Assembly (NCBI GenBank): GCA_945871085.1
Contig: CAMBVX010000026.1
Coordinates: 1-33,257 of the forward strand
DNA length: 33,257 bases
Source of the DNA: Opitutus sp. GAS368
GTDB taxonomy: Bacteria; Verrucomicrobiota; Verrucomicrobiia; Opitutales; Opitutaceae
Reading direction: 5' to 3'
Under the pieces are notes generated by a model. That model had not been told where the DNA came from. It saw nothing but the letters and a program-made list of their open reading frames with translations, and ran no database searches. Of the stretch, positions 7,437-29,260 are shown piece by piece (position 1 is the stretch's first letter; each line of letters begins with the position of its first letter). The translations under genes were made by a program, and so were the position numbers.

Positions 7437-7568
7437 GGTGGGTATCCTTTCACTGAAGTCTTGTTGAACTGAAGCGTGCTAAACTATTTACACTTGTTGA
7501 ATTGGGTCAATGATTATGACAACTTCACCGCAGATGATTTTACGGCACGTTTCCCGCCTCCACTGACC

Positions 7569-8273
7569 ATGCCCGATCCCGTTGCAGTCAACTCCATGTT
7601 CGCGCGCATCGCAGCCCGTTACGACGTCGCCAACCGGCTCTTGAGCGGCGGACTGGACGTGTGGTGGCGGCGCCAACTCGTCGCCGCGGTCTGCCGTGGA
7701 GCACCCCGCGCCATCCTAGACCTCGCAACCGGAAGCGGAGACGTGGCGTTTGCGCTCGCTCGGCGACTCCCGTCAGCCACGACAATCACCGGAATTGATT
7801 TCTGCCAACCCATGCTTGACGCGGCCGAAATCAAGAAAAATGCCGACGGTGCCGGCACCTACGCCAACGTCTCTTTCCGCCAAGGTGACGGCCTCGCACT
7901 CCCCTTGCCCGACGCGTTCTGCGACGCGGTTACGATTTCGTTTGGCCTGCGAAATCTCGCCGACCGCCATGGCGGGCTGCGTGAAATCCACCGCGTGTTG
8001 CGCGCGGGCGGACGTCTCTTCGTCCTAGAGTTTTCGCAGCCCTCGGCGTGGTTTCGCCCGTTTTACTTCTTCTATTTGAGGAAAATTATCCCGCTGGTCG
8101 CCGGCTTCGTGACGGGCGATCGCGCAGCCTATGTTTATCTGAACGAAACCATCGAACAGTTTCCCGCCGCAGCTGCGCTCGCCGACGAGATTCAAGCCGC
8201 CGGCTTTACGTCCGTGTCGGCTACCACCATGACCTTCGGCACGGTCGCGATCCACGAGTGCACCAAAAAATAA
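7569..8273 (+). CDS. ubiE/menG: Demethylmenaquinone/ubiquinone methyltransferase
   Basis: MFARIAARYDVANRLLSGGLDVWWRRQLV, LDLATGSGDVAF, FGLRNLADRHGGLREIHRVLRAGGRLFVLEFSQP. Confidence 0.93.
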   Translation: MPDPVAVNSMFARIAARYDVANRLLSGGLDVWWRRQLVAAVCRGAPRAILDLATGSGDVAFALARRLPSATTITGIDFCQPMLDAAEIKKNADGAGTYANVSFRQGDGLALPLPDAFCDAVTISFGLRNLADRHGGLREIHRVLRAGGRLFVLEFSQPSAWFRPFYFFYLRKIIPLVAGFVTGDRAAYVYLNETIEQFPAAAALADEIQAAGFTSVSATTMTFGTVAIHECTKK

Positions 8274-9755: not shown

Positions 9756-11279
9756 ATGAGCGGGCACGGATTTAGTCACGAACTGCGCCAGCGTCAGACC
9801 CAATCGCTGGTCCTCGCTCCGCAACTTAGGCACTCCCTGAAAATCCTTCAGGTGGCCGCGCTCGATCTGCGCTCGGTCATCCAAGAAGAACTGCAAAGCA
9901 ATCCGACGCTCGAAGAACTCCCCATGGAGGGAGTCAGCCTCGACCATACCGCACCCGAGGACAACGCTACCGACCGGGATTCCGACTCCAGTGGAAAAGT
10001 CGGCACCGACACGACTGACGCCACCGCTCCCTCCGACACTTCAGAAGTAAAGCGCGATGAAATGGATTTCTCCAAAGACAAGGAATTCGAGATCCTGGGC
10101 AAGCTCGACGAAGACTGGCGCGACCACATGGCCAGCGCCGGCGGCGCTCAACCCTACACCTCGGAGGATGCCGAGAAGCGGCAACACTTTTTTGACTCCC
10201 TCGTCAGCGAGACCTCGTTGCAGGAGCATCTCATGCAGCAAGCGGAAATGACGGATCTCTCGCCGGCAGCCCTGCAAGCGATGCAGCATCTTGTCGGCGG
10301 TCTCGACGACCGTGGTTTTTTGACCCAAACGCCCGCCGATGTCGCACTCCAAACGGGCCTCGGACTGGAGGCCGTGCAAGCGGCACTGAAGACCCTCAAA
10401 AGCTTTGATCCTCCCGGCATTGGGGCCAAGAATCTCGCCGAGTGCCTCCTCCTACAACTCGCCGCCAAAGGCCGCAGCGATTCGCTGGCGCTGCGCATGA
10501 TCCGAGACTACTTCGAACTCCTCACCCGCCGGCGCATCCCGGAGCTCGCGCGAAAGCTTTCCGCCGATACCGACGATGTGCAATCCGCCATCGAGGAAAT
10601 TGGCAAACTCGACCCAGCCCCCGGCCGACGCTTTGCCGAAGACAACAATCGCGTCGTCATTGCCGATGTAACCGTGGAGAAAGACGGCGACGAGTGGAAG
10701 ATCAACCTCAACAGCGACTACATCCCACGCCTCCGCCTCTCCAGCACCTATCGCGACCTGATCGCCAAGGGCACGCTCTCGAAAGAAGAGCGCGACTATC
10801 TGCGTGAGAAAATGCGCTCCGGAAAGTTTCTCATTGATTCGATCGAGCAGCGCCAGCGCACCATCGAACGCATCACGCGTGAAATCATCAAGGCGCAGAC
10901 CCCTTTCTTTGAGACCGGAGTCTCACAGCTCAAGCCGCTCACGATGACTCAAATCGCGGATGTTGTCGGCGTCCACGAAACCACGGTCAGTCGCGCCATC
11001 GCCAATAAATATATCAAAACCCCCCATGGGATTTTCGATTTCAAATATTTCTTCACGCCCGGCTACCAAGCGGACAGCGGCGCCTCGGTCTCGAATACCA
11101 GCGTCAAGGAAATGCTCGCCGATCTCGTCGCCGGTGAAGACAAAGGGACCCCGCTCAGCGATCAAGAAATCGTGGCGAGACTGCAGGAAAAAGGCATCAA
11201 GATCGCCCGCCGCACAGTAGCTAAATACCGTGAAGAGCTCGGCCTCCTCCCGAGCAACTTGCGCCGGGATTACAAGTAG
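9756..11279 (+). CDS. rpoN: RNA polymerase sigma-54 factor
   Basis: N-terminal Q-rich region I (RQRQTQSLVLAPQLRHSLKILQ), HETTVSRAIANKYIKTPHGIFDFKYFF, RpoN box IARRTVAKYREELGLLPS. Confidence 0.96.
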   Translation: MSGHGFSHELRQRQTQSLVLAPQLRHSLKILQVAALDLRSVIQEELQSNPTLEELPMEGVSLDHTAPEDNATDRDSDSSGKVGTDTTDATAPSDTSEVKRDEMDFSKDKEFEILGKLDEDWRDHMASAGGAQPYTSEDAEKRQHFFDSLVSETSLQEHLMQQAEMTDLSPAALQAMQHLVGGLDDRGFLTQTPADVALQTGLGLEAVQAALKTLKSFDPPGIGAKNLAECLLLQLAAKGRSDSLALRMIRDYFELLTRRRIPELARKLSADTDDVQSAIEEIGKLDPAPGRRFAEDNNRVVIADVTVEKDGDEWKINLNSDYIPRLRLSSTYRDLIAKGTLSKEERDYLREKMRSGKFLIDSIEQRQRTIERITREIIKAQTPFFETGVSQLKPLTMTQIADVVGVHETTVSRAIANKYIKTPHGIFDFKYFFTPGYQADSGASVSNTSVKEMLADLVAGEDKGTPLSDQEIVARLQEKGIKIARRTVAKYREELGLLPSNLRRDYK

Positions 11280-19026: not shown

Positions 19027-19255
19027 TGCCCGTCCGCGCCCAAGACTATGGCTGTTCCCCCCTTGGTCTCATGGCGTCCACGTCCTCGCCCGACTTTCCT
19101 TGGTCCGCCGGCGCGACGGTGCCCTTGACGGAAGCGCACCGTTTTTTCGCCCCACCGTCGTTTTGATCTTGGCCCAAGTTTCCGCCTCCCTCGCCTTCAC
19201 ACTTGGCTTACCCTGCTCCTCCACCCAACCTCCCCCCCTAACCCCTCCGCCGCGC

Positions 19256-20716
19256 ATGAACAATGACACCCGCTGGCTAGCCCGACTCGGCATCGACCAG
19301 GGCCTCTTCACCCGCCCCCAAGCCCTCCAAGTCCGCAACGCCGCCGGCGCCGACGGAGACATCATGGCCTTCGCCCAAGGTCTGATCGACTCCGGCATCG
19401 TCACCGATCTCGACACGCTTGAAAAACTCGCCGACCTCGCCCTCACCAAAGGAGAAAAAGGTCCGCCGGCCGCCGACCCTTTCGATGACAACGCGACCCA
19501 GGCGCCCTTCGTTCAAACCGGCACTGCCGCCCATGCTCGTGGCCTCACCACCGACCTCGGCACTGACCACGCCCAAGCCCCGCCGAAGACCTCCGGCCTC
19601 GGTCCCGCGCCCAAATTCGCTTTCGAGACAATTCAGACGCTCAGCGACACCGCACTCGCCACCGCCCTCCGCGCCCTCCTCCGCGCCACCGCCAACTACG
19701 GCGCCAGCGACCTCCATCTCTGCACCGGTGCCCGACCGTTCATCCGGAAAAATCGCGCACTCTCCTTCCTCTCCGACTATACCCTCACCGCGCAGGACGC
19801 CCTCCGCCTCAACGTCGCCCTGCTCGCCGACCACCAGAAAAAAATCTTCCTCGAGAAAAAGGACTACGACTACGCCTTGGCCCTGAGCGACGCCGACCGC
19901 TACCGCGTCAACTTAATGTTCCACAAGAACGGCGCCGCCGGTGCCTACCGCATGGTTCCGGCGGATACGCGCACGCTCGAAACCCTCGGCTACACCCAGC
20001 ACATCGCCACGCTGCACAAACTCCTCTCCTACCATAACGGCCTCATCCTCATCACCGGCCCCGTTGGCTCCGGCAAGACCACCACCCTCGCCTCGATGGT
20101 CGCCTACCTCAACGAGACCCGCACCGACCACATCATCACCGTCGAAGACCCCATCGAAGTCGTCCAACCCTCCAAGGGCTGCAACGTCACCCAGCGCGAA
20201 GTCGGCCCACACACCCGCTCCTTCGCCACCGCCCTCAAAGGCGCCCTCCGCGAAGACCCCGACGTCATCGTCATCGGCGAACTCCGCGACCTCGAGACCA
20301 TCGAGATGGCGATCAGTGCCTCCGAGACGGGCCACCTCGTCATCGGGACGATGCACACCAGCGACGCCGCCACGACTCTCAACCGCCTCCTCGACGTTTT
20401 CCCTCCGGCGCAGCAAACGCAGATTCGTTCCAGCGTTGCCGAGAGCCTCCGCGGCGTCGTGTGCCAACGCCTTCTGCCGGCCCTCGACGGCACCGTCGTC
20501 CTCGCGTGCGAAATTCTCGTCAGCAACACGGCGATTCAAAACCTCATCAAAGAAGGCAAGACCACGGGCCTGAAAAACACGATGGAGACGGGCGTGAAAG
20601 AAGGAATGTGTCTCATGGACAACGTCGTCCTCGCTCTCTGGAAGGACAAAAAAATCACCGCCGAAACCGCCCAGATGAACATCACCAACCGCGTGCTGAA
20701 GGCGAAGATCACGTGA
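19256..20716 (+). CDS. Type IV pilus retraction ATPase, PilT/PilU-type with an extra N-terminal domain
   Basis: GPVGSGKTTTLASM Walker A, DPDVIVIGELRDLETI Asp/Walker B, GTMHTSDAATTLNRLLDVFP His box; about 115-residue N-terminal extension plus linker. Confidence 0.9.
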   Translation: MNNDTRWLARLGIDQGLFTRPQALQVRNAAGADGDIMAFAQGLIDSGIVTDLDTLEKLADLALTKGEKGPPAADPFDDNATQAPFVQTGTAAHARGLTTDLGTDHAQAPPKTSGLGPAPKFAFETIQTLSDTALATALRALLRATANYGASDLHLCTGARPFIRKNRALSFLSDYTLTAQDALRLNVALLADHQKKIFLEKKDYDYALALSDADRYRVNLMFHKNGAAGAYRMVPADTRTLETLGYTQHIATLHKLLSYHNGLILITGPVGSGKTTTLASMVAYLNETRTDHIITVEDPIEVVQPSKGCNVTQREVGPHTRSFATALKGALREDPDVIVIGELRDLETIEMAISASETGHLVIGTMHTSDAATTLNRLLDVFPPAQQTQIRSSVAESLRGVVCQRLLPALDGTVVLACEILVSNTAIQNLIKEGKTTGLKNTMETGVKEGMCLMDNVVLALWKDKKITAETAQMNITNRVLKAKIT

Positions 20717-21449: not shown

Positions 21450-22526
21450 ATGGCCGCCATCGACACCCTCCTCCGCACCATGCTTGAAAAGGGCGGGTCC
21501 GACCTCCACCTCACCGTCGGCCTCCCGCCCAAAACCCGCGCCTCGGGCGCCCTCATCCCCCTCGCGGGCACGGTCATCGATGCCCCGACGATGGAGTCCC
21601 TGCTCAAAGAAATTTGCCCCGCCAAACGTTGGGCCGAATTTCTCGACCGCAAGGACCTCGACCTTGCCCACGAGATCCCCGGCCTCGCCCGTTTCCGCGG
21701 CAATTACCTCTACAATCACTGGGGCCAAGCCGCCGTCTTCCGCCAAATCCCGGCCAAAATCCTTTCCTTCGATGAACTCAAGCTCCCCGAGTCGCTGAAA
21801 AAACTCTGCCACCTCGATCAAGGCCTGGTCGTCGTCACCGGACCGACCGGCTCCGGCAAATCGACCACGCTCGCCGCAATGATCGATTACATTAACACCA
21901 ACCTCTCCCGCCACATCATCACCATCGAGGATCCCATCGAGTTCGTCCACCCGGTGAAAAAATGTGTCATCGTGCACCGCGAGGTCGGCGAACATACCGC
22001 CTCCTTTGCAAATGCCCTGAAAGGCGCGATGCGCCACGACCCCGACATCCTCCTCCTCGGTGAAATGCGCGAGATGGAGACGATCAAACTCGCCCTCGGC
22101 TGCGCCTCGATGGGCATGCTCGTTTTCGGCACGCTGCACACCAACAACGCCCCGAAGACCGTCGACCGCATTATCAACACCTTTCCCGCCGAGGAACAAA
22201 ATCAGGTCCGCATCATGCTCGGCAGCTGCCTCGCCGGTGTCGTCGCCCAGCTCCTCTGCAAACGCATTCCGAAGGGTCGCTGCGCCGTCCACGAAATTCT
22301 CTTACAGCATGAAGCGCTGCCCAACACGATCCGCAGCGGCCAGATTGCGAATATCAAATCCATCATCGAGAGCGGTGGCATGGACGGCATGATCACCATG
22401 GACAACAGCCTCATGAACCGCGTGAAAGACGGAACCATCGAGCCCAAAGAAGCCTACATGAAAGCCGCCAACAAAGGCACCTTCGCCCCGCTCCTCCAAC
22501 CCGGCGACCTCGAAGGCGGACACTGA
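21450..22526 (+). CDS. pilT: Type IV pilus twitching motility protein PilT
   Basis: GPTGSGKSTTLAAMIDYIN, HPVKKCVIVHREVGEHTASFANALKGAMRHDPDILLLGEMREMETI, GTLHTNNAPKTVDRIINTFP. Confidence 0.93.
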   Translation: MAAIDTLLRTMLEKGGSDLHLTVGLPPKTRASGALIPLAGTVIDAPTMESLLKEICPAKRWAEFLDRKDLDLAHEIPGLARFRGNYLYNHWGQAAVFRQIPAKILSFDELKLPESLKKLCHLDQGLVVVTGPTGSGKSTTLAAMIDYINTNLSRHIITIEDPIEFVHPVKKCVIVHREVGEHTASFANALKGAMRHDPDILLLGEMREMETIKLALGCASMGMLVFGTLHTNNAPKTVDRIINTFPAEEQNQVRIMLGSCLAGVVAQLLCKRIPKGRCAVHEILLQHEALPNTIRSGQIANIKSIIESGGMDGMITMDNSLMNRVKDGTIEPKEAYMKAANKGTFAPLLQPGDLEGGH

Positions 22527-24059: not shown

Positions 24060-24398
24060 ATGTCCAGCGTGCCACCACCGACCAATGAGCTTGCCGAACT
24101 CGCCTCTGTGCTCGGTGAAGATAACGTCCGCACTCTCGTCCGCACCTTTCTTCGCGACTTCCCCGTCTCACTCGCCGAACTCTCCGGCCCCGGTGATCGC
24201 AAGAACCGCCACCGCATCGCCCATAGCATGAAGAGCAACACCCGCCTGATGGGGGCGCACCATCTCTCCGACCGCATGGCCGCCCTCGAGACCCGCTTGG
24301 AGCAGCCGACCGGACCAGACTTCACCGCCGACGATCTCACCCTCATCTCGCGCGATTACGAAGCGATCGCCGGCCCGCTCCGCGCATTCGTCGGCTAG
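24060..24398 (+). CDS. Hpt (histidine phosphotransfer) domain protein
   Basis: RIAHSMKSNTRLMGAHHLSDRMAALE matches the Hpt phosphohistidine helix (AHxLKxxxxxxGA). Confidence 0.8.
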   Translation: MSSVPPPTNELAELASVLGEDNVRTLVRTFLRDFPVSLAELSGPGDRKNRHRIAHSMKSNTRLMGAHHLSDRMAALETRLEQPTGPDFTADDLTLISRDYEAIAGPLRAFVG

Positions 24399-24476: not shown

Positions 24477-25118
24477 TCAATTGTCGACCAAGCCAACTTG
24501 GATACACCACCGCGTTAGGCTCGCCACCTCGCGCACGCCGACTTTTTCCATGATGTTGGCCCGGTGTTTCTCCACCGTCCGCACACTCAGGCCAAGTTTG
24601 GAGGCGATCTCCTTCGACATCTGGCCTGCGGCCACCAAACGCGCGATCTCCTGCTCCCGGGCGGTGAGCGGCACGTCCAGCGGACGTTTCGCGCCCGGCA
24701 AAGCCCCACCACTACGGGCCCGCACCCGGCTCGCAAAAAACATGCCGCCCGCGCGCACCGTCTCGACCGCGCTCAGCACATACTCAATCGGTTCCGTCTT
24801 GTCGACGTAGCCATTGACGCCGATGGCCATCAAATCCGCCGGCAAGCGCTCACTCGGGTGCGCCGTAATCACCAAAATTTTCATGTCCGGCACCAAGCGC
24901 CGAATCTCGCGCGCGATCTCCAGCCCATTGATGTCCGGCAGCATCAGATCAACCACCAGCATGTCCGGTTTCTCACGGAGACAATACTCGAGTCCCGGCT
25001 TGCCGAGACCAAACTCGCCAACCACTTGAATCCCCTTCACCTTGCCCAACGTGAGCAAAATTAACTGGCGAAACATCGTCTCGTCTTCGATGAGAACAAC
25101 TTTGATTTGGCTGCGCAT
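24477..25118 (-). CDS. NarL/FixJ-type response regulator
   Basis: IKVVLIEDETMFRQLI, LVVDLMLPDINGLE, VDKTEP receiver motifs; LTAREQEIARLVAAGQMSKEIASKLGLSVRTVEKHRANIMEKVGV LuxR HTH. Confidence 0.95.
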   Translation of the reverse strand: MRSQIKVVLIEDETMFRQLILLTLGKVKGIQVVGEFGLGKPGLEYCLREKPDMLVVDLMLPDINGLEIAREIRRLVPDMKILVITAHPSERLPADLMAIGVNGYVDKTEPIEYVLSAVETVRAGGMFFASRVRARSGGALPGAKRPLDVPLTAREQEIARLVAAGQMSKEIASKLGLSVRTVEKHRANIMEKVGVREVASLTRWCIQVGLVDN

Positions 25119-25308
25119 GCGATTCGAGGGCGGTAGGGCTAAGCAGTGTTACACGACCGGTCACGCACTTCTACGAATGGCGCTTCCGATCAACGTTTGG
25201 TAAATTGGGACAAGGCACACTCTCCATGACCGAAACTAAGTTCAAGCTCACAGTTGCAACGACGTCCTCCCCGATGACGGCACCCACGCATCCAGCGCAA
25301 GGTCAGCC

Positions 25309-26907
25309 ATGAGCGAGGCCGCCAAAGCCCCCCCTCGTGCGCACGTGATGGTCGTGGAAGATTCATCCGTCTTCCGGGAAATGCAGGGCCTCCTTTTGCG
25401 TCAGGCCGGCTATGAGGTTTCGGGCCACGAACACCCCCAAACCGCCCTCGCGGCGGCACGCGAGCGCAAGTTCGATCTCGTGATCATCGACTACGAACTC
25501 CCGGAAATGAACGGCCACCAGTTCATGCATGAACTGCGCAAGATTCTTCCCGATATCGCGATCATCTTCGTCTCCGGTTCACTTACCCTCCAACTGGCCA
25601 TCCAGCTCAGTCGCGAGGGCGTCGCCGGCATTTTTAACAAGCCCGCCAACCCGAAGACGCTCCTCGAAAAAATTAACGAGACGCTCACCCGCACCGGTTC
25701 GCGCGACGCCGCTGTGCCCGGCGGCAGCTCCAGCTCGCCGCTCCCAGCCGCCCGCCGCGGCAGCTCCAGCGCCCCTTTCCCCGCTGCCCCCGCCGCCCCG
25801 TCCGAGCCGTCGGCCGGCGATCTCGCCTACGCGCCGCGCTATTTTCCCGGCCATTGCGAAGCCTTCCGCGAATTCACCCATCGTCTCTGGAAAGTCCGCG
25901 ATTTTCGCGCGGTGCTCCTCTTGCAGGGTGAGGATGGCTCGGCTTTCGAGCTCATCGCCCGCGACCTCGCTGCTATTTCCATTTTCCGCGACGGTCCGAT
26001 CATGGCATGCGATGCCGCTCAGTTCGAAACCAGCCACCTCATCGAGGTCCTCGCGCCCACTCTCCTCGCACGGGACGCCGGCACGTTGATCATCACCGGC
26101 GTCGAGTCCCTCACCGTCGCCCAGCAGAAAGTCCTCGAGACCCTGATGACCAGCCGCGACGTGTTCCTCCCGTTCGCCCGCCGCTTTCGCCTCGTGCTCG
26201 CTTCCGCCGGACTACTCTCCGATCTCGCCGACTCCGGTCATTTCGGCGAAACTCTCTACTACAAGATCAGCTCCCTCTCCGTGGAGGTTCCATCCCTCGA
26301 CGAGCTCCGCGACGACATCCTCCTGCACGCCCGCCAACTGCTCGATCAGCATAGCGCCGCGAACAAATCCGCGAGATCCCCCGCCCTCACGACCGACGCC
26401 GCCGTCTGGCTGGAAGGGCAGGAGTGGGTCGGAAACTACACCGAACTCTCCCGCACCCTCCAACTTGCCCTCGCGACCTCGACAGGCCCCGAGCTTGATG
26501 TCCCCGCCCTCGAAACAGCCCTCGAACGAGCGCTCGTGGAGGTCGGTAAAACCCACGCCGCTCCGCTACCTGCCGCAGTTCCGCCCCGCGCCCGCGTTCC
26601 CGCCGCCATCGAGGAAACCCTTCCGCCGTTTTTCATGCGCGCCGCGCCCGCGACCGGTGTCGCAGTCCCGCCCCCCCCCCCCGTTCCCGCCCCGGCGACC
26701 GCTTCGATCCCGGCGGTCACTGCGGCCACCAGCCAGCACACCGCCGACGTTCCACCGCCGACACCGGCCGCCCCGAAACCATCGCCCGCCCGCCCGCCTT
26801 CCGGGCTCACGGCGCGCAGCGTGTTTCGCCCGGCTTCGAGCGCCTATGATTTCAGTAAACGCCTAGCCGAGTCTCTGGCGGTCGCCGAAGTCGCCCCCGC
26901 CTCGTGA
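25309..26907 (+). CDS. Receiver domain fused to a degenerate sigma-54-activator-like AAA+ domain (pseudo-ATPase) and a Pro/Ala-rich tail; no HTH
   Basis: REC: VVEDSSVFREM...VIIDYELPEMNG...FVSGS...FNKPA. AAA+-like: AVLLLQGEDGSAFELIARDL, AGTLIITGVESLTVAQQKVLETL, HFGETLYYKISSLSVEVPSLDELRDDILL, WLEGQEWVGNYTELSRTLQLAL. Confidence 0.8.
   Translation: MSEAAKAPPRAHVMVVEDSSVFREMQGLLLRQAGYEVSGHEHPQTALAAARERKFDLVIIDYELPEMNGHQFMHELRKILPDIAIIFVSGSLTLQLAIQLSREGVAGIFNKPANPKTLLEKINETLTRTGSRDAAVPGGSSSSPLPAARRGSSSAPFPAAPAAPSEPSAGDLAYAPRYFPGHCEAFREFTHRLWKVRDFRAVLLLQGEDGSAFELIARDLAAISIFRDGPIMACDAAQFETSHLIEVLAPTLLARDAGTLIITGVESLTVAQQKVLETLMTSRDVFLPFARRFRLVLASAGLLSDLADSGHFGETLYYKISSLSVEVPSLDELRDDILLHARQLLDQHSAANKSARSPALTTDAAVWLEGQEWVGNYTELSRTLQLALATSTGPELDVPALETALERALVEVGKTHAAPLPAAVPPRARVPAAIEETLPPFFMRAAPATGVAVPPPPPVPAPATASIPAVTAATSQHTADVPPPTPAAPKPSPARPPSGLTARSVFRPASSAYDFSKRLAESLAVAEVAPAS
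26671..26682 (+). repeat. C12 homopolymer inside the coding region
   Basis: Twelve consecutive C between cagtcccg and gttcccgc; encodes part of VPPPPPVP. Confidence 0.9.
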
Positions 26908-27069: not shown

Positions 27070-27717
27070 ATGTCTTTCCGCTCGAACAGCGACGGCCTTC
27101 GACCGACTCCCTCTGAACTCATTCGCCCCATGCTCGCCGAAGGGGCTCTTCGCCTCGCCGATGGCCAACGTATCGCCGTGCTCCCGGGCGCTTTTTTTCC
27201 GCAACTTTCCGTCGGACTCGACCAACCGTCCGGCGACCACGTGCGCCACGCCGTCTACAAACTCGGCTACGAATGGGCCCTGCAAGATATGGTGCGCCTG
27301 AGCCGCCAACTCGCCGCCGAATTCGGCGCCGGTGCCAACCTCGACCTCTGGCAAATGGACGTAAAATTTGTCCTCGACCGTTGGTGGGCGCCCCTCAACG
27401 CCGCCGGCTGGGGTGCTTGGACCCTCGACCTGTCCTCGCGCACCCGCCGTTTCGCCTTCGTGGAACTCCACCATAGCCTCGTCGCCGCCCACTCCCCCGG
27501 CGCGACCCAGCCTTCCTGCCACCTTTACGCCGGCCTCTTCGCCGGCGCACTCAGCTTTTTTGACCGCATCGAATCTCACTCCGTGGAATTTCAGTGCGCC
27601 TCCCTCGGGGCTCCCTCCTGCCGGTTCGTCGTCGGTCCTGGCCCACAAGTCGACGAAGTGGAATCGTGGCGCCAGCAAAAGGTCGCTCCCGACGAAATCC
27701 GCCGTCGGCTCACCTAA
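27070..27717 (+). CDS. V4R-domain protein, copy 1
   Basis: QPSCHLYAGLFAGALSFFDRIESHSVEFQCASLGAPSCRFVVG: V4R C-terminal signature with a Cx7C pair. Confidence 0.75.
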   Translation: MSFRSNSDGLRPTPSELIRPMLAEGALRLADGQRIAVLPGAFFPQLSVGLDQPSGDHVRHAVYKLGYEWALQDMVRLSRQLAAEFGAGANLDLWQMDVKFVLDRWWAPLNAAGWGAWTLDLSSRTRRFAFVELHHSLVAAHSPGATQPSCHLYAGLFAGALSFFDRIESHSVEFQCASLGAPSCRFVVGPGPQVDEVESWRQQKVAPDEIRRRLT

Positions 27718-27728
27718 CTCCAACCGCC

Positions 27729-27986
27729 ATGAATGCTTGGAATGAAACCCACTACGCCCGCGCTCAGGAGTTCACCCGCCTCCTGTCCCAGGCACTCTCC
27801 GCCGCCGCACCCGCGACCGCCGCCAACCCGGCCACGGCACCTGCACCGGTCGTTTCACCGCTGATCGCCTCCCCTCCTCCGCCGTCTCCCGCGACATCCT
27901 CTGCGCCCGTTCCACCCGCTGCACCCGCCCCGGCCGGTGCCCAACCCGCTGCCAACCTCTTCAAGAAAATCCCGTGGAAAAAGTGA
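27729..27986 (+). CDS. 85-aa Pro/Ala-rich small protein with helical N-terminus and basic C-terminus
   Basis: ATG 11 nt after the previous stop and 12 nt before the next start: MNAWNETHYARAQEFTRLLSQALSAA-(P/A-rich)-NLFKKIPWKK. Confidence 0.65.
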   Translation: MNAWNETHYARAQEFTRLLSQALSAAAPATAANPATAPAPVVSPLIASPPPPSPATSSAPVPPAAPAPAGAQPAANLFKKIPWKK

Positions 27987-27998
27987 CCACCCGCCGCG

Positions 27999-28649
27999 AT
28001 GCCTCCCTCTGACGATACCACTTCCCCAGCCGACCTCGACCGTCTCTTCGACCCTCGCGCGTTTCTGGCCGATGCCGCCACCGGCCGCGTCTCCGACCCC
28101 ATCGGCACCCGCGTCGCCTACGTCTCGCGTGAATTCTCCCGCGCCCTCCATCACATCCTCATGAAGGAAAAGTCGGGCGCATGGCGTGACACCCTCGCCC
28201 GCAGCGGACGCGTGTGCGGCCGCGAAATCGCCGAGGGTCTCGACCGGGAGTCCGCCCGCCTCGGCCTGCCCGCCCTCGGGGCCCTCCCGCTGGAGACGTG
28301 TCTGGTCTTTCTCGAGCGTATCTTCGTTGCCCACGGCTGGGGCGTATTGCGGGTCGACCTCGCTGACGCCCCCGAACACGGCCTCGTCACCGCCCAGCTC
28401 ACCCACAGCTATTTCGCGGAAGTCCTGTCCCATGTGGACGATTTCGTCGACCCTCTGCCCGCCGGCACTCTTCAAGGTTTCTTCGAGCACATCAGCGGCG
28501 AACCACTCGGTTGTCTCGAAATCGCCTGCGTCCGCCGCGGCGCCCCTCAGTGCACCTTCGTCATCACCGCGAGCGAACGCCTCGACGCCATCGCCCCCTT
28601 CCTCGGCCGTGAGCCTGCCGCCGCGATTATCGCGCGACTCAAAGCCTGA
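27999..28649 (+). CDS. V4R-domain protein, copy 2
   Basis: EPLGCLEIACVRRGAPQCTFVI: V4R-like Cx7C signature. Aligns with copy 1 over ...FLERIFVAHGWGVLRVDL / VLDRWWAPLNAAGWGAWTLDL. Confidence 0.7.
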   Translation: MPPSDDTTSPADLDRLFDPRAFLADAATGRVSDPIGTRVAYVSREFSRALHHILMKEKSGAWRDTLARSGRVCGREIAEGLDRESARLGLPALGALPLETCLVFLERIFVAHGWGVLRVDLADAPEHGLVTAQLTHSYFAEVLSHVDDFVDPLPAGTLQGFFEHISGEPLGCLEIACVRRGAPQCTFVITASERLDAIAPFLGREPAAAIIARLKA

Positions 28650-28660
28650 GCCCGCCAGTC

Positions 28661-29260
28661 ATGTCCCTCGCTTCGCCGAAAATCACCTGCCTTTTCTTCA
28701 CCGACCCGTCGCTGCCATCGTTTTTGGCCACCCCCGCCGGTCGGGCCCTCGCCGGCGACCTCCTCGTCGAATGCGCCCCGCACCCCGCGTTGGGCTACGT
28801 GCTCAACCTTGAGACTCCTTCCAATTACCCCGGCGTCGCCGGCCTCCTCGGCGGGATCGACGTCGGCACGCTCGCCCACCCCACCGACGCGCTGCCCGCG
28901 CCCATCCTCCTCGCCGCCGGCGCGCCCGTCTCGATGCTCGCCGTGCGCTCCGCCCTGACCTGCCTCCTGCGTCCCGACGAACGCCTCCGCGCGATCACCC
29001 TGCTCGTCCCACTCGGCGAAGCCCGCGCCCTCGGCGCCGCACTCGCCGTCGCTGACCGCTTCGCCATTGCTTGGGACGTCGCCGCCTTTCCGCACGAGGA
29101 ACTCCTCGCCTTCGCCGGTTGGCTCGCAGCCGAAAAACTCCTCACCCGAGAAAATTTCGCCGGCCTCCACCCCTACGCGGCGACCCCGTCCGCGGCCCAC
29201 ACTCAGCGCCTCGCTCCCCTGCTCGCTCCCCTCAACGCGCGCCTGCTCTCCGTCGCGTAG
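28661..29260 (+). CDS. Hypothetical protein, last gene of the V4R run
   Basis: 199-aa ORF starting 11 nt after the V4R-2 stop; no recognised family. Confidence 0.65.
   Translation: MSLASPKITCLFFTDPSLPSFLATPAGRALAGDLLVECAPHPALGYVLNLETPSNYPGVAGLLGGIDVGTLAHPTDALPAPILLAAGAPVSMLAVRSALTCLLRPDERLRAITLLVPLGEARALGAALAVADRFAIAWDVAAFPHEELLAFAGWLAAEKLLTRENFAGLHPYAATPSAAHTQRLAPLLAPLNARLLSVA

Follow-up and report, generated by a model that had tools for sequence, protein, structure and literature searches.

In a window of 33,257 nucleotides from Opitutus sp. GAS368 (the whole stretch of DNA analysed here), a single gene encodes a receiver domain joined to an AAA+ body of the sigma-54-activator type in which the catalytic residues have been replaced. 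Judged by its sequence, this pseudo-AAA+ protein stems from an NtrC-type response regulator that has turned into a pseudoenzyme, with a receiver that retains every residue required for accepting phosphate. We favour, at a probability of about one half, the reading that it works as a phospho-switched, nucleotide-independent adaptor, the output of which would be binding to other proteins, the partners being ones that we infer. Searches of the open-access literature found no description of the family to which it belongs. Activators without GAFTGA are already known, and those found in that literature still act as transcription factors. If a conserved family has given up ATPase activity, sigma-54 contact and DNA contact together while its receiver stays intact, this would demonstrate that the AAA+ body of bEBPs can serve as a signalling adaptor.

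Sequence, fold and conservation of the pseudo-AAA+ protein

The initial annotation had recognised the landmark order of NtrC-type activators with the key motifs replaced, and all four motifs that it quoted are present in the translation (Table 1). The Walker B, arginine-finger and sensor-II segments lie where it had placed them; the Walker A segment is correct as a motif but lies one codon downstream of the 25924-25950 given for it. It had also reported that the GAFTGA loop and a Fis-type HTH were absent. Both absences stand, as the L1/GAFTGA loop carries a deletion of ~15 residues relative to canonical activators and the Pfam scan of the protein returned no HTH or other DNA-binding family. 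For want of a DNA-binding domain, we filed the protein as derived from the activator family and did not count it as a member.

Table 1. Features of the pseudo-AAA+ gene and its neighbourhood (positions in the window)
Feature	Position	Strand	Match or remark
PilB/GspE-type ATPase, upstream of pseudo-AAA+ gene	19100..20716	+	PF00437 8.4e-49
PilT-like ATPase, upstream of pseudo-AAA+ gene	21450..22526	+	PF00437 1.2e-40
Hpt protein	24060..24398	+	PF01627 1.7e-5; phospho-acceptor segment AHS.KSN conserved
NarL/LuxR-type response regulator, divergent from pseudo-AAA+ gene	24477..25118	-	PF00072 1.3e-19, PF00196 3.9e-17
Leader ORF (MTETKFKLTV...)	25226..25312	+	stop overlaps pseudo-AAA+ start codon (ATGA)
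Receiver + pseudo-AAA+ protein gene	25309..26907	+	532 aa
Receiver domain	25345..25677	+	PF00072 1.2e-21, residues 13-123; phospho-Asp D61 at 25489-25491
Pseudo-AAA+ core, residues 182-330	25852..26298	+	PF14532 (Sigma54_activ_2) 2.7e-13; fold match NtrC1
Degenerate Walker A, GEDGSAFEL (Lys to Phe, Ser/Thr to Glu)	25927..25953	+	
Degenerate Walker B, GTLIITGV (DE to TG)	26080..26103	+	
Degenerate arginine-finger segment, FGETLYYKI	26242..26268	+	
AAA+ lid, residues 334-407	26308..26529	+	PF25601 (AAA_lid_14) 1.1e-6
Degenerate sensor II within lid, WVGNYTEL	26425..26448	+	
Conserved C-terminal tail, S.FRPAS..Y.F..RLAESL	26815..26889	+	after Pro-rich linker; predicted lone helix 515-527
V4R1	27070..27717	+	PF02830 8e-12; stand-alone homologue of DmpR/PoxR/MopR sensory domain
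Small Pro-rich protein between V4R genes, MNAWNETHYARA...NLFKKIPWKK	27729..27986	+	13/20 loci
V4R2	27999..28649	+	PF02830 1.3e-7
199-aa protein without Pfam match	28661..29260	+	homologue in BBAG clusters L107, L108, L130

The AAA+ similarity proposed from the motifs was found by profile and by fold. The Pfam scan gave a PF00158 match (7.4e-6) besides those listed in Table 1. An AlphaFold2 model, built from 20 sequences without templates, has a mean pLDDT of 71, with high values in the receiver and AAA+ parts (mostly 81-94 over residues 171-410) and low values in the linkers; its C-terminus is a Pro-rich linker followed by a single lone helix. The top Foldseek match of this model is NtrC1 (1ny5, E 1.0e-22), followed by NtrX, NtrC4, LuxO, VpsR and FleQ, and a profile search of PDB sequences with the family retrieved NtrC1 (1.3e-32) and VpsR (2.8e-20). 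As far as profile and model can tell, the AAA+ fold (PF14532/PF00158) expected of bEBPs is retained.

A genome scan yielded 19 orthologues with 52-77% identity, all from Opitutaceae/Verrucomicrobia MAGs, and residues were tallied over these and the protein itself (n = 20). The P-loop Lys is replaced by Phe in 20/20 and the P-loop Ser/Thr by Glu in 19/20; the Walker B Asp has become Thr in 18/20 and the Walker B Glu has become Gly in 19/20. Arginine finger 1 is D, N or G and finger 2 is Lys in every member, and the sensor-II Arg is missing from all 20. The loss of the Walker residues is therefore common to the class, and the tally rules out the reading as an ordinary sigma-54 activator that Pfam alone would give. 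The receiver, said in the initial annotation to keep its Asp, Ser and Lys, does so throughout: E17, D18, D61, S89 and K111 are kept in 20/20, the set expected of a phosphorylatable receiver. Also invariant are the non-catalytic RDFR and FARRFR residues of the pseudo-AAA body and F506, R507, F515, R518 and L519 of the C-terminal tail, which is a candidate docking peptide.

For the AAA part, six pairs gave NG86 dN/dS values of 0.07-0.24 and the closest pair gave 0.43; high dS in the majority of pairs makes these values rough. Conservation is strongest in the receiver (0.03-0.07 in most pairs). Nearly all sequences compared come from MAGs, and the related genomes are not independent. These ratios indicate that purifying selection is acting on the non-catalytic AAA+ body, and since the losses and their conserved substitutes are common to 20/20 with dN/dS well below 1, they point to a conserved state, not decay. 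Together, the retained fold, the loss in every orthologue of all parts for catalysis and sigma-54 contact, the intact receiver and the purifying selection give good support to the phosphorylation-controlled pseudo-ATPase that the initial annotation proposed.

Gene neighbourhood and the V4R pair

Three genes adjoin the pseudo-AAA+ gene in 19/19 orthologous loci, namely those for Hpt, V4R1 and the divergent LuxR-type regulator, and V4R2 is present in 18/19, the sequence of the remaining locus (L052) stopping before it. Among the 252 Opitutaceae genomes surveyed, a V4R match occurs in 21/21 genomes with the pseudo-AAA+ protein and in 6/231 without it, two of which (G374 and G454) have the orthologous pair. 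In four congeneric genomes without the protein (G001, G003, G004 and G008), V4R and this Hpt are missing too. Chance co-location of the V4R genes is ruled out by synteny and phyletic pattern, a judgement to which no P value is attached, the genomes being related. Hpt homologues were found in 68 genomes, ~45 of them without the pseudo-AAA+ protein.

A leader ORF similar to that of Table 1, of 24-31 codons and beginning MPELKHTL... or MTELKFKP..., lies upstream in 19/20 loci (the window and L041-L059 except L057), with the ATGA stop/start overlap in 14. Because its initial ~40 bases are also conserved as DNA, the region may be a cis element. The promoter scan found no sigma-70-like site. The window also contains rpoN (sigma-54), at 9756-11279, ~14 kb from the pseudo-AAA+ gene.

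V4R1 and V4R2 are the only V4R genes found in their genome. Searched alone against the PDB with phmmer, V4R1 gave no match; its profile matched DmpR (2e-6), MopR (7e-5) and PoxR (1.2e-4), and the fold of its model (pLDDT 82) matches PoxR (2.6e-8), MopR and DmpR. Its invariant C150, C176 and C184 repeat, at intervals of 26 and 8 residues, the spacing of the zinc Cys 151, 177 and 185 of DmpR (PMC7264223), in which the V4R sensory domain is fused to a live AAA+ domain and restrains it (PMC7264223). Profile, model and cysteines identify V4R1 as a predicted DmpR-type sensor, with the sensory-domain fold and the zinc Cys.

The same V4R pair is found in three Opitutales genomes (G374, G454 and G090; loci L107, L108 and L130) inside a full bilin cluster with a 2Fe-2S ferredoxin, a phycobilisome-type globin, a Ser/Thr kinase and a ferredoxin-dependent bilin reductase, which is the pre-PcyA/BBAG cluster of Rockwell et al. 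2023 (PMC10151467); the searched text of that paper makes no mention of response regulators. The V4R1 and V4R2 profiles match the V4R proteins of the L107 cluster at 8e-79 and 1e-59, so that the V4R pair of the pre-PcyA/BBAG cluster (clades A and B) is recovered by profile. The window shares with L107 and L108 the order V4R1, small Pro-rich protein, V4R2, 28661 protein. The small Pro/Ala-rich protein has conserved ends (M..WNE.HYARA... and ..F..IPWKK), and L107 and L108 encode a longer, similar-looking counterpart with several FF..LPW repeats. V4Rs found elsewhere in the phylum (L131-L135) and those of L104-L106 and L109 were rejected as orthologues of the pair. No match to bilin reductase (PF05996) or to the BBAG globin (PF00502) was found in the genome of the window, and the V4R pair is most simply read, from these matches and gene orders, as what is left of a pre-PcyA/BBAG cluster whose bilin part is gone. 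Since it persists here without bilin reductase or globin, the link provides a handle on the role of V4R proteins in slr0144/BBAG clusters.

The L107 and L108 clusters end with two more receiver/pseudo-AAA-like proteins, and one such BBAG-cluster protein matches the pseudo-AAA+ family profile with 64% probability (E 6.5e-5, 309 columns). It is mainly because the pairing recurs in two types of cluster that we regard V4R and pseudo-AAA proteins as functional partners.

Related degenerate proteins and pilus/secretion ATPases

A mixed profile of three groups, A (the pseudo-AAA+ protein), B (L064-type) and C (L018-L021-type), was run against 390 genomes of the phylum. The best 20 matches (243-554 bits) all fall within one order, Opitutales, and no sequence inspected among them retains the P-loop Lys, the Walker B acids or GAFTGA; Phe often stands in for the Lys, and Leu, Tyr or other residues occur there as well. 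L155, at 187 bits, is another degenerate form. Of the matches at or below 172 bits, those inspected were either canonical activators or members of a separate degenerate class, D. Class D proteins (L009, L158, L162 and L166) combine receiver and AAA+ and keep GTGK with its P-loop Lys; they have lost the Walker B acids, have no GAFTGA and end in an HTH-like C-terminus. In a maximum-likelihood tree of the AAA part, A and B are grouped (98), C is nearest and canonical proteins lie apart, the placement of C having a support of 71 and long branches. A single origin of catalytic loss across A, B and C is likely from these sequences, though not proven. At the level of sequence comparison, the survey shows an Opitutales radiation of dead-AAA receiver proteins.

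PilB/GspE- and PilT-like genes such as those of Table 1 lie upstream in 9/19 orthologous loci, searched within 8 kb. The class C gene belongs to an operon-like run that also encodes another degenerate receiver/AAA protein and an ATPase of the T2SSE/MshEN (PilB/GspE) type at six loci (L097, L167, L168, L169, L171 and L172). The run at L097 and L167-L172 usually includes a small MshEN-like protein and spans several Opitutales families. At L098, a gene that looks heme oxygenase-like by eye (7561-8190, minus strand) sits between the MshEN-like gene and the class C pseudo-AAA gene. At class B loci (L093-L095 and L101), none of the partner genes looked for (V4R, Hpt, pilus) was found nearby. The class C operons and the class A pilB/pilT neighbours suggest, as gene neighbourhood, a pilus or secretion output for the pseudo-AAA+ proteins. 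A receiver protein that binds a pilus ATPase directly is known from PixE-PilB1 (PMC7690835).

Proposed function, alternatives and known systems

In the adaptor reading, Hpt would supply phosphate to two proteins, the pseudo-AAA+ protein with its receiver and the divergent LuxR-type regulator, and a phosphorylation-driven change in conformation or oligomerisation would switch the pseudo-AAA+ body between binding states. The V4R proteins would be its most likely partners, because the sensory domain of which V4R1 is a stand-alone form is, in DmpR, PoxR and MopR, fused to a live AAA+ activator and controls it. The conserved C-terminal helix may offer a second docking site for a further partner, and the final target would at best guess, from the gene neighbourhood, be the type IV pilus/secretion ATPase machinery. 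Several observations weigh against this reading: class B proteins without V4R, Hpt or a pilus gene nearby, pilB/pilT within reach in just 9/19 orthologous loci, Hpt homologues in the ~45 genomes without the protein, and the mere 64% probability of the BBAG-cluster match. A broader proposal, which we hold as tentative and rather doubtful, is that Opitutales regulators turned the sigma-54 AAA+ domain into a nucleotide-free, phospho-switched binding module, with the V4R branch as a split, non-transcriptional 'DmpR' signalling to pilus or secretion. That branch would have inherited its V4R sensor pair from the pre-PcyA/BBAG cluster and would relay a ligand signal together with the phosphorelay signal.

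Other functions can be weighed on the same evidence. Firstly, the protein could be a phosphate sink, its receiver diverting Hpt phosphate from the LuxR-type regulator and its AAA body being a mere stabiliser. The receiver is indeed the part with the lowest dN/dS, and Hpt and the LuxR-type regulator are adjacent in every locus; yet a sink has no need of a 230-residue AAA body that is under purifying selection with invariant RDFR and FARRFR, nor of a conserved C-terminal helix, and we think it unlikely. Secondly, direct regulation of a pilus/secretion ATPase, in the way PATAN-CheY proteins act on PilB1, would account for the upstream genes in the window and nine other loci and for the six class C operons, with PixE-PilB1 as a precedent. 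Half of the class A loci have no pilus genes within 8 kb, however, and class B loci have none, which leaves this function somewhat less credible than the sink.

Thirdly, the initial annotation had offered two roles, scaffold or inhibitor of true activators. The scaffold fits the conserved block of Hpt, LuxR-type and two V4R genes; for the inhibitor no positive evidence was found. As an anti-activator, the protein would join or cap the rings of live sigma-54 activators and so block them. The genome does contain eight strong PF00158 genes, rpoN is in the window, and the AAA+ fold and lid are retained. Arginine fingers are needed for working mixed AAA+ rings, and here both fingers are gone together with the sensor-II Arg. 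Moreover, rpoN lies at a distance, the genes conserved around it (V4R, Hpt, LuxR-type) include no sigma-54 activators, and no constant activator partner accompanies the family across the order. We put low odds on inhibition of true activators. A sigma-70-type transcription factor akin to the GAFTGA-less VpsR, TyrR and Caulobacter NtrC (PMC3162934; PMC10274813) is highly improbable: profile and fold searches both list VpsR, but a DNA-binding family is absent, the C-terminus consisting of a Pro-rich linker and one helix. Finally, a decaying allele or pseudogene, which the loss of every catalytic motif might suggest, is refuted by the orthologue survey and dN/dS, as the losses and substitutes are shared by 20/20, the frames are intact and synteny is kept.

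The adaptor proposed here can be set beside five known systems. It has the same order of receiver, AAA+ core and lid as NtrC, NtrC1 and ZraR, from which it differs in having no P-loop Lys, Walker B acids, arginine fingers, sensor-II Arg, GAFTGA or HTH. Like VpsR, TyrR, HupR and Caulobacter NtrC, it is bEBP-derived, has lost GAFTGA and is not a sigma-54 activator; those proteins act as transcription factors (PMC3162934; PMC10274813), and Caulobacter NtrC requires its Walker residues (PMC10274813), whereas the pseudo-AAA+ protein has neither a DNA-binding domain nor Walker residues. The PATAN-CheY proteins PixE, PixG and LsiR are likewise receiver proteins that presumably act by binding the pilus machinery, not DNA (PMC7690835), with a different effector domain; here the pilus link is one of gene neighbourhood. 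With the pre-PcyA/BBAG and cyanobacterial slr0144-slr0149 clusters (PMC10151467), the window has in common the V4R pair, the Pro-rich protein and the 28661 protein, all with homologues in L107 and L108 (in L130 the V4R pair and the 28661 homologue); in place of bilin reductase and globin it has Hpt, the LuxR-type regulator and the pseudo-AAA protein. Lastly, the sensory domain of DmpR, PoxR and MopR is matched by V4R1 in profile, fold and zinc-Cys spacing. Those proteins combine the sensor with a live AAA+ activator in one chain, whereas in the window a gene of its own encodes each part and the dead AAA+ protein carries a receiver, so that the two together look like a split, catalytically silent DmpR.
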